In this document: one piece after another, positions 16,223-24,706 of the stretch
Layout of the letters: each line of letters starts with the position of its first letter
Numbering within the stretch: the stretch's first letter is position 1
NCBI GenBank assembly: GCA_018828145.1
Contig: JAHJWO010000054.1
Span: 248,001 to 312,000 of the forward strand
Direction of reading: 5' to 3'
From: Alphaproteobacteria bacterium
Lineage (GTDB): Bacteria; Pseudomonadota; Alphaproteobacteria; Rhizobiales; Devosiaceae
Length of the DNA: 64,000 nt
Program-made: the position numbers and the translations under genes
The notes under the pieces: generated by a model
Database searches by the model: none
The model's input: only the letters and a program-made list of their open reading frames with translations
Told to the model about the DNA's origin: nothing

Positions 16223-19678
<3,456 letters not shown>

Positions 19679-19819
19679 GACACGCCCTTTATGACCGTCC
19701 CGGCGCGCAGATCATACCGCTACCGGACCGCAATCCACAGGCGGCGCTGGCGCCGTCTCTTTTCGCCGCGTCTGCAAAGGGCAAAACCAGGGTCCACTCT
19801 TGCTGAAAACGCCTCAGGG

Positions 19820-19918
19820 TCACACGAGTCGGGCCAGCACATCCATCCAGGTCAGCGAACCTATGGTGAAGGCGCCCAGCGTGACGAATGCGGCGAAGTC
19901 CTTGATGAAAGTGAGCAT
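19820..19918 (-). CDS. Putative SOS-induced 32-residue membrane protein
   Basis: Very small gene: MLTFIKDFAAFVTLGAFT at the start and SLTWMDVLARLV at the end, 32 residues. It is predicted to have one membrane-spanning helix (about residues 8-27) with a positively charged N-terminal region. The ATG at 19918 has GGGAGA 5 bases upstream; a second ATG at 19924 is too close to that site. Its promoter carries a consensus alphaproteobacterial LexA box, and it lies upstream of dnaE. Size, topology and regulation recall SidA, the tiny SOS division inhibitor of Caulobacter; homology is not shown. Unknown function. Confidence 0.62.
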   Translation of the reverse strand: MLTFIKDFAAFVTLGAFTIGSLTWMDVLARLV

Positions 19919-19948
19919 CTGCATCTCCCGTGTTGCTATAATGTTCTT

Positions 19949-19977
19949 ATAAGTTCGTCTTTTGTTCCTGTCCAGTG
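19949..19977 (-). promoter_or_regulatory. Promoter with LexA (SOS) box
   Basis: On the minus strand TGGACA, a 17-base spacer and TATAAG form a good sigma-70 promoter. Inside the spacer is GAAC-AAAAGAC-GAAC (19953-19967), an exact match to the alphaproteobacterial LexA consensus GAAC-N7-GAAC. The box ends 35 bases before the ATG at 19918. LexA bound there would block the polymerase. Confidence 0.68.
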
Positions 19978-20059
19978 TGACAAGCGGGAACAGCGGGGAT
20001 TGGGCCTGCTTGGTTAGCAAAGTGTTAGGAAAGGTTCACGACGCGTTACGCGTCGGGCG

Positions 20060-20073
20060 TTGACGATCGTCAA
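20060..20073. promoter_or_regulatory. 14-bp perfect palindrome upstream of membrane-anchored hypothetical gene
   Basis: TTGACGATCGTCAA is a perfect palindrome 49 bases before the start at 20122. It could be an operator, or its first half could serve as a -35 element; no regulator gene is adjacent. Confidence 0.35.
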
Positions 20074-20121
20074 GGCGACCACCCCGAAGATACATCACAA
20101 TGTGCCTTATGGAGGGAGCCA

Positions 20122-20718
20122 ATGGCGGCGTGGTTAGGCTGGTTCATGGATGGCACGAACTTGGGGTCTCTGGTCGCCGCGGCGAGCGCCGCTGGTGCAC
20201 TATGGCAATACCGTCGGAACAGCCTCCGCCATAAGGACGACCTTGCTCAACGGCAGGCCGTCACCGCCGTGCAGGAGACGCTGGCGCTGCTGAACGACCC
20301 GGAGGCGCAGCGCGCGCTCTCCGCCCTGGATTACTCCGAACCCACAACCATGCGCGCCCTCCGGCTGCATGCGGCCACCTACGAGACCGATCCGGCCAGT
20401 GCTTTTTCCGAAGACGAGAAGAAGGCGCGCGACAATATGGACCAGCTGCTGACTCGCCTAGAAATGATCGACTTCCTCATTGAGAGAAACGTTATCGCCA
20501 AGGCGGACTTCAGGAAGCAGTTTGCCTATTGGCTGGAACTGCTGGGCGAGATCCCTGACCGGCACGATACTCTTGTGCATTTCAGCGACACCAACCGAAG
20601 AACGCTCTGGGCCTATATACGCACCTATCGCTTTCTCGGCGTGATCAGCTTGTTCGCCCGGTATGACCGGGCATCGAAGGCCTCAGGAACAACCGAAGCG
20701 CTTTTCGTCGCACGCTGA
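20122..20718 (+). CDS. Hypothetical protein with N-terminal membrane helix
   Basis: 198 residues. A single hydrophobic helix at about residues 10-28 (DGTNLGSLVAAASAAGALW) is followed by a basic segment and a mostly helical cytoplasmic domain rich in charged residues (DLLTRLEMIDFLIE-type, FRKQFAYWLELLGEIPD). The pattern resembles DUF4760-like membrane-anchored proteins, but the match is too weak to assert. GGAGGGAG lies 4 bases before the ATG. No operon partner. Function unknown. Confidence 0.78.
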   Translation: MAAWLGWFMDGTNLGSLVAAASAAGALWQYRRNSLRHKDDLAQRQAVTAVQETLALLNDPEAQRALSALDYSEPTTMRALRLHAATYETDPASAFSEDEKKARDNMDQLLTRLEMIDFLIERNVIAKADFRKQFAYWLELLGEIPDRHDTLVHFSDTNRRTLWAYIRTYRFLGVISLFARYDRASKASGTTEALFVAR

Positions 20719-23100: not shown

Positions 23101-24342
23101 TCAGCGATCGCCAGCCGCTTCCGCATTCAGCTCTGCCAGGCGCTTCAGCAATAGCCGGCGCTCCGGCTCTTGTCTGCATATCTGCAGGGCCCGGCCATAG
23201 GCCGCCACCGCCGCATCCCGGTGTCCCAGCTGGTGCAGCAGCACGGCTTCCGCGACATGGGCCAGGTGGTAGTCGGCCAGTTCCCCGGTGTCGAGCAAGG
23301 CCTGCACCATGGGCAAGGCCACGTCCGGCCCGCGCACCATGCTGATGGCGATGGCCCGGTTCAGCTGCACGATGGGCGACGGCGCCGCGCGCTGCAGCAC
23401 GCCATAGAGTCCCACGATTTCGGTCCAGTCGGTCTCGGCGGCCGTCGGGGCCGCGGTGTGCACGGCCGCTATGGCGCCCTGCAGGGCATAGGGCCCGACC
23501 TGGCGCGAGGCAAAGGCCCGCTCGACGAGGCCCCTGCCCTCGGCGATCATGTCGCGATCCCAGAGGGTACGATCCTGATCGGCCAGCAGCACGACATCGC
23601 CATCCGCCGTCTGTCGGGAGGCGCGCCGGGCCTCGTTGAGCAGCATCAGTCCGAGCAGGCCGAGCACCTCGCCATCGGGCAGCAGCTGGGCCACCATGCG
23701 CCCCAGCCTGATCGCTTCCGACGACAGGTCGGCCCGCATGATGGTCTCGCCCGAATAGGCTGAATAGCCTTGGTTGAAGACCAGGTAGATCACCCGCAAG
23801 ACGCTGTCGAGCCGCGCCGGAAGCTCGGCGCTGGAAGGGATTTCATAGGGCAGCCCGGCTTCCTTGATCCGCAGCTTGGCCCGCACGATGCGCTGCGCCA
23901 AGGTTGGCGTCCGCACGAGGAATGCGCGCGCAATCTCCTCGGTGGTCAGCCCACAGACCTCGCGCAAGGTCAGCGCCACCTGTGCCTCCGGCAACAGCAC
24001 CGGGTGGCAGCAGGTGAACATGAGCCGCAACCGGTCATCCGGCAGGTCGGCATCATCGGCAACCAGGTCCTCGGCTTCCATGGCGAGCAGATCCACCTGC
24101 GCCGCATCGAACCGCTTGCGCCGTCGCAGCCGATCGAGCGCCCTGAACCGCCCGGCAGACACCAGCCAGGCACCCGGATTCTCCGGCATGCCCTCGACCG
24201 GCCATTTCTGTGCCGCGGCAAGAAATGCGTCGTGCAAGGCCTCTTCCGCCAGGTCGAAATCGCGCAACAGCCGGATCAGCGTGGCCAGCACCTTGCGCGA
24301 CTGCTGCCGCCAGACCAGTTCGAGATCGGCCGGTTGCGCCAT
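23101..24342 (-). CDS. ECF-type RNA polymerase sigma factor with C-terminal extension (DUF6596)
   Basis: 413 residues from the chosen ATG (MAQPADLELVWRQQS). Region 2 (ATLIRLLRDFDLAEEALHDAFLAA) and region 4 (TLREVCGLTTEEIARAFLV) form a normal ECF core to about residue 180; a long TPR-like helical domain (YLVFNQGYSAYSGE, QLNRAIAISMVRGP) follows. This is the ECF42-type architecture, where the extension is thought to control activity in place of an anti-sigma factor and the partner is a DGPF protein. Exactly that gene lies one base upstream, so the two are translationally coupled. Confidence 0.9.
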   Translation of the reverse strand: MAQPADLELVWRQQSRKVLATLIRLLRDFDLAEEALHDAFLAAAQKWPVEGMPENPGAWLVSAGRFRALDRLRRRKRFDAAQVDLLAMEAEDLVADDADLPDDRLRLMFTCCHPVLLPEAQVALTLREVCGLTTEEIARAFLVRTPTLAQRIVRAKLRIKEAGLPYEIPSSAELPARLDSVLRVIYLVFNQGYSAYSGETIMRADLSSEAIRLGRMVAQLLPDGEVLGLLGLMLLNEARRASRQTADGDVVLLADQDRTLWDRDMIAEGRGLVERAFASRQVGPYALQGAIAAVHTAAPTAAETDWTEIVGLYGVLQRAAPSPIVQLNRAIAISMVRGPDVALPMVQALLDTGELADYHLAHVAEAVLLHQLGHRDAAVAAYGRALQICRQEPERRLLLKRLAELNAEAAGDR

Positions 24343-24343
24343 G

Positions 24344-24706
24344 TCATGCCGTGCTGCGCTTGAGCACGCCGACAGGCCGCACTTCGATCGAGCCAACGCT
24401 TGCCAGAGGCATCCGCCCTGCCAGCTGAATAGCCTCGTTGAGATCCCGCGCCTCGACGAGAATAAAGCCGCTCAGATGTTCCTTGGTTTCCATGAACGGA
24501 CCATCGGTGGTGGTCAGCGCACCATTCCACCGCCGCACGGTCGTGGCCTCCGCCGGGCTCTTGAGCGGCTCGGCCGTGATGAAGTGGCCGCTGGCCCTGA
24601 GCTCATCGTCATAGTCGAGCATGCCGTCTCCGAAACTGTCCCGTTCCGCCTGGCTCATCACGGCGAACTTGGATTCATCGAGATAGATCAGAAACATATA
24701 CTGCAT
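24344..24706 (-). CDS. YCII-related (DGPF) domain protein, ECF42 partner
   Basis: 120 residues starting MQYMFLIYLDESKF. The family motif TTDGPFMETKEHLSGFILVEA is at residues 69-89, given here as its known DGPF core. Proteins of this kind are encoded next to ECF42 sigma factors and are their likely targets or partners; the molecular activity is unknown. The ATG at 24706 has AGGAGG at a normal distance. It ends one base before the sigma factor start. Confidence 0.88.
   Translation of the reverse strand: MQYMFLIYLDESKFAVMSQAERDSFGDGMLDYDDELRASGHFITAEPLKSPAEATTVRRWNGALTTTDGPFMETKEHLSGFILVEARDLNEAIQLAGRMPLASVGSIEVRPVGVLKRSTA

Follow-up and report, generated by a model that had tools for sequence, protein, structure and literature searches.

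A frame of 32 codons directly upstream of dnaE in the window (the whole 64,000-nucleotide stretch of DNA that was analysed; G+C 64%, genome 4.4 Mb) is, with good confidence, a divergent sidA gene, which would be repressed by LexA and released by DNA damage and whose product probably stalls septation at FtsW. The real news of the analysis is the arrangement, judged from the regions surveyed: a LexA-type box, a short hydrophobic frame and dnaE, found in this order across the class. The features of the locus, which lies on the minus strand throughout, are as follows.

19969–19974, minus strand: −35 hexamer TGGACA, 17 nt from the −10 hexamer; its GAC is invariant in 39 genus promoters
19953–19967, minus strand: LexA-type box GAACAAAAGACGAAC (GAAC-N7-GAAC), wholly within the promoter spacer
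19946–19951, minus strand: −10 hexamer TATAAG, supported by the promoter alignment
19943–19946, minus strand: third GAAC half-site (TATAAGAAC), six bases past the second and fused to the end of the −10 hexamer; AAGAAC in 37 of 39 genus promoters
19925–19929, minus strand: ribosome-binding site GGGAG, 6 nt 5' of the ATG at 19918–19916
19820–19918, minus strand: 32-codon frame, MLTFIKDFAAFVTLGAFTIGSLTWMDVLARLV and stop, a single hydrophobic helix; SidA-family microprotein as judged by translation, conservation, pN/pS and profile link
16223–19678, minus strand: dnaE, DNA polymerase III alpha subunit, 1151 aa (NF004226, 1429.6 bits, cut-off 1002)

The sequence-only reading of this DNA had placed a GAAC-N7-GAAC box inside the spacer of a TGGACA-17-TATAAG promoter, after which came a ribosome site and, upstream of dnaE, a frame of 32 codons with one hydrophobic helix, and these elements are present as claimed. 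The stop codon of the frame ends at 19820, and the start of dnaE at 19678 is 141 nt downstream. A start giving 34 residues was rejected: the in-frame ATG at 19924 touches the ribosome-binding site and is not conserved, hence 32 codons are the better reading. In the alignment of 39 genus promoters, the half-sites stand out against the variable N7, and GGAG of the ribosome-binding site is conserved in most rows. A promoter scan of 19600–20200 found no promoter; its pattern requires a T as the last base of the −10 hexamer, where TATAAG has G.

Downstream of the microprotein gene, before dnaE, lies TGTGGATTG (CAATCCACA on the plus strand) at 19731–19739 (plus strand). Of the 39 genus spacers, 34 have this sequence unchanged and 38 have TGTGGA. 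The element resembles the DnaA box, agreeing with its consensus at 7 of 9 positions, and is possibly a control element of dnaE. On the other side of the microprotein gene, a divergent frame of 198 aa (20122–20718, plus strand) shares its upstream region; the sole match of this frame is a sub-threshold one to DUF4760 (17.6 bits, cut-off 25). The product of a gene at 23101–24396 (minus strand) is a sigma factor that has sigma-70 regions 2 and 4 and, at its C terminus, a DUF6596 domain.

Conservation of the frame beside dnaE and of the LexA box, which the sequence-only reading had left to be checked in relatives, was found in the genus. The G+C content, the genome size and the relatives hint at a Devosia-type member of the Hyphomicrobiales. 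The genus set comprised 40 genomes: 37, including that of the window, from a search of 61 genomes (the frame was matched in all 37), and three more from a search of the order. All but one of the 40 have an intact frame, and 32 of these 39 have the strict GAAC-N7-GAAC box, namely 31 of 38 rows located by script, and L220 (in L028 the box is at a shifted place). The other seven (L021, L035–L038, L215 and L216) have no exact second half-site, the first being kept and the second one base off. As judged by the 39 sequences, the frame evolves as a protein, with a pN/pS of 0.233, compared with values of 1.18 and 3.64 when the two alternative frames are read. Seventeen residues, including K6, D7, F17, W24 and D26, are invariant in an alignment of 25 members.

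The frame might serve mainly as a leader, i.e. an upstream reading frame that tunes dnaE expression. Such a role would fit the position of dnaE, which lies 60–168 nt past the stop in 39 of the 40 genus loci (the exception is L017, where dnaE did not appear within reach), and the result of the terminator scan, which gave no terminator-like site between the two genes in the window. However, the amino-acid constraint on the frame is strong, and the protein made by the Caulobacter counterpart is known to act in trans. Moreover, in the fortieth genome (G025, locus L221) other DNA replaces the promoter, the LexA box and the start of the frame, while the dnaE start follows as usual. Given these points, a leader role is regarded as very unlikely. 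Since the insertion removed the promoter and the dnaE start is still there, dnaE persists without the LexA promoter. In the window, the layout suggests that dnaE may be read through from the LexA-controlled promoter and thus be SOS-linked.

Locus L221 represents a natural loss of the sidA-like gene, with the inserted DNA in its first 150 bases. The minus strand of the insert has the start of a frame that by eye resembles an OrfA or transposase of the IS3 type; a Pfam search with a 25-residue fragment of the inserted DNA gave no match.

Box statistics alone were rejected as evidence, as the window has two GAAC-N7-GAAC matches where 1.19 would be expected, which is no better than chance; in the genome the pattern occurs 126 times versus 72 for the reversed pattern. 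Taken as a whole set, i.e. intact frame, coding constraint and conserved half-sites, the locus is far beyond chance by sequence comparison. One lexA gene scores over the model cut-off in this genome (181.1 bits; C50:236641–237348), ~31 kb from the microprotein locus and outside the window. It is preceded by a GAAC-N7-GAAC box in each orientation (C50:236576–236590, plus strand, and 236601–236615, minus strand), and the motif also lies 35 nt ahead of the matched region of one dnaE2-like gene on C18, whose score of 581 bits is below the DnaE cut-off. As both genes carry the motif, it is very likely that LexA of this genome reads it, and putative LexA control of the microprotein gene is well supported. 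In C. crescentus, lexA (CC1902) also lies near dnaE (CC1926), according to a passage of PMC1839093; the proximity of lexA to sidA–dnaE in both genomes may reflect an old neighbourhood of SOS genes.

SidA is described, in passages of the respective papers, as an inner-membrane protein of 29 aa that acts on FtsW (PMC4211646) and as being under LexA (PMC12700426). Passages of three papers give sidA as CCNA_02004 (PMC10769358), dnaE as CC1926 and recN as CC1983 (PMC1839093), and recN as ccna_02062 (PMC12700426). The two recN numbers differ by an offset of ~79, which places sidA beside dnaE, in agreement with the loci seen here. These were read in four named Caulobacter genomes reached through their S-layer protein (G711–G714; loci L207–L210). 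The crescentin model PF19220, used as a marker for Caulobacter, had no match over its cut-off in 37 genomes. All four have a dnaE-upstream frame of 29 residues, MIR[VI]ARESLALVSVA[GS]FVWMMCTVA[QN]LVA, and a box, GAACATCTTGTGAAC, that begins 64 nt before the ATG. The one sequence submitted, from L207, scored 73.7 bits against the curated model NF033228, 'cell division inhibitor SidA' (cut-off 35).

The 32-residue frame had no match to any Pfam or NCBIfam model, NF033228 included, at E 1 or better, which fits the earlier suggestion that it is too small for standard annotation. It was not over the cut-off of NF033228, whose best match anywhere in this genome has E 0.96. Among 387 class genomes, NF033228 exceeded its cut-off in one (G626, family f104) and gave a match at E 1 or better in 136, most of them chance-like. 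Frames upstream of dnaE in f104 also fall below the cut-off (21.4 and 18.1 bits); hence the model looks too narrow to define the family. Among the matches listed in a search of open-licence PMC, no title or abstract start reports SidA outside Caulobacter. A search with the genus profile was made of 297 genomes of the order. Within the family, four sister genera were sampled; three of them (g26, g28 and g29) gave clear matches, and the single g27 genome gave none. Outside the family there were many weak matches, for part of which the locus was read. A box precedes L053, L055, L057, L059–L061, L063 and L064 (E 0.04–0.14), and dnaE follows at 134–605 nt in these loci except L063. Neither was seen at L065, L068 or L062, the last of which is close to the end of its contig; weak matches of those read that were without dnaE or box were set aside as chance.

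The survey of the class, in which dnaE was matched in 377 of 387 genomes, covered 30 dnaE-upstream regions selected automatically and 30 and 40 hand-chosen stretches, the latter 40 mostly from larger genomes, with each family represented by roughly one or two. Two of these 40 (G337 and G600) were picked after a profile match beside dnaE, so that the sample is not random. Six of the 100 regions were without the dnaE motif and were dropped, leaving 94 regions from 65 families, the window included. In this chosen sample, the strict box was present within 700 nt in 22 of 94 regions, representing 14 of 65 families, and absent from 72. By script, a short hydrophobic frame follows the strict box in 21 of the 22; in the remaining region (L187) the script gave none, and a frame was met through the SidA model. 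The strict control motifs CAAG and CTTG were found in one region each, with no short hydrophobic frame behind. When one mismatch was allowed, a frame followed 6 of 64 sites for three controls versus 27 of 55 for GAAC. The opposite orientation, GTTC, gave nine strict sites, three with a frame, all in regions that also hold a GAAC box.

To our knowledge, an SOS division inhibitor has been recognised in few alphaproteobacteria. A locus rule that asks for a GAAC-N7-GAAC box, then a short hydrophobic frame, then dnaE yields candidates in 14 of the 65 sampled families, and the spread of natural variants would show which residues of a minimal division inhibitor matter. A broader view is put forward tentatively, with the balance somewhat against it: SidA would be the ancestral SOS division brake of Alphaproteobacteria, written LexA box–sidA–dnaE, with one LexA-controlled transcript that halts septation and raises the replicative polymerase, and with members that drift so fast as to be recognisable only by locus and box.

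The sequence-only reading had left it undecided whether the microprotein was related or convergent to SidA. The common dnaE-upstream position, the same box, the near-equal length and a profile similarity via intermediates point to relatedness. Three sets were compared by hhalign: the window's family (29 rows), 15 chosen intermediates, and Caulobacter with f104 (6 rows). The window's family matched the intermediates with E 5.1e-11, Caulobacter with f104 matched the same intermediates with E 9.5e-9, and the two ends matched each other directly with E 1e-4. In each of the three comparisons, none of 200 plain column shuffles and none of 200 shuffles keeping the hydropathy class was as good. When seven less alike survey frames were put back among the intermediates, the E values were 5.3e-10 and 8.4e-9; with these seven alone as intermediates they were 2e-5 and 4.7e-6, and none of 100 shuffles was as good in any of these four comparisons. 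Comparisons with three Caulobacter rows gave weaker results: E 0.027 at a probability of 1.8% for the genus by itself, and E 8e-6 at 83.7% for alignment A3.

In searches of whole Caulobacter genomes with a Caulobacter-free profile, sidA ranked first in G711 (E 0.015) and G713 (E 0.38), second in G714 (E 0.40) and fourth in G712 (E 1.12). With 20.6 bits, one Caulobacter sequence outscored all of 2000 composition shuffles, and among 2000 class-keeping shuffles a single one equalled it, the others scoring lower; two variants scored 16.6 and 16.2 bits. The direct similarity to Caulobacter SidA is weak, 21% in one alignment. Convergence would mean that an unrelated SOS microprotein has arisen next to dnaE; short helices do look alike, and the direct similarity to SidA is modest, as seen from the E values of 1e-4 and, for the genus alone, 0.027. 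A chance likeness of this kind would, however, have to account for the same neighbour and box, the near-equal length, a graded series of intermediates and the failure of every hydropathy-keeping shuffle to reach the score, and it is considered highly improbable. Homology of the 32-residue frame to SidA is thus well supported by the profiles. The box inside the promoter, the coding selection, the conservation, the position in common with SidA and the profile homology are all shown by the sequences themselves.

As a divergent SidA, the microprotein would be expected to work as follows. LexA bound to the box in the promoter spacer would block RNA polymerase; on DNA damage, activated RecA would cause self-cleavage of LexA and the promoter would fire. 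Such LexA-dependent induction is suggested by SidA biology, as are the membrane insertion and orientation of the product: the 32 residues would enter the inner membrane as one helix, with the charged Lys6-Asp7 on the cytoplasmic side. The inserted helix would then stall late septation or septal wall synthesis until repair is done, most likely through binding to FtsW in the manner of SidA, division arrest and target being predicted by analogy with SidA. A model that also puts SidA on FtsW TM7, on another face than YneA, is of low confidence (a passage of PMC13396833).

Several known systems can be compared with this locus. SidA of C. crescentus is, like the present microprotein, a tiny single-helix protein (29 versus 32 aa) encoded directly upstream of dnaE with a box in front. 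It differs in having Arg-Glu and Trp-Met-Met in Caulobacter where Lys-Asp and Thr-Trp-x-Asp are present here, in extra half-sites in tandem after the box in the four Caulobacter loci, and in being detected by NF033228, which does not detect the window's frame.

TisB is a LexA-controlled protein of ~29 residues with one charged amphipathic helix and an antisense RNA antitoxin. The microprotein could be a membrane-depolarising SOS toxin of this kind, or it could be a membrane microprotein under LexA control that descends from SidA but has since taken on another function; length, regulation and the single helix are common to TisB, and length and regulation are not enough to tell the two apart. 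However, none of the 39 genus sequences has a charged residue in positions 8–25, unlike the charged helix of TisB, and no Rfam family reached its gathering score in 19000–20700, a search that an undescribed RNA would escape. The locus and the profile are, moreover, those of SidA. A toxin or a changed function is accordingly judged unlikely, and both the TisB-like and the leader-peptide readings are ranked below a divergent SidA.

DidA of C. crescentus is, by its description in a passage of PMC4211646, a small membrane inhibitor of the same divisome as SidA, but is SOS-independent and targets FtsN. YneA, SosA and ChiZ, from other phyla, are likened to SidA by role: they are DNA-damage-induced small membrane division inhibitors, of which YneA binds FtsW and SosA and ChiZ have been modelled, with low confidence, on FtsW TM7 (a passage of PMC13396833).
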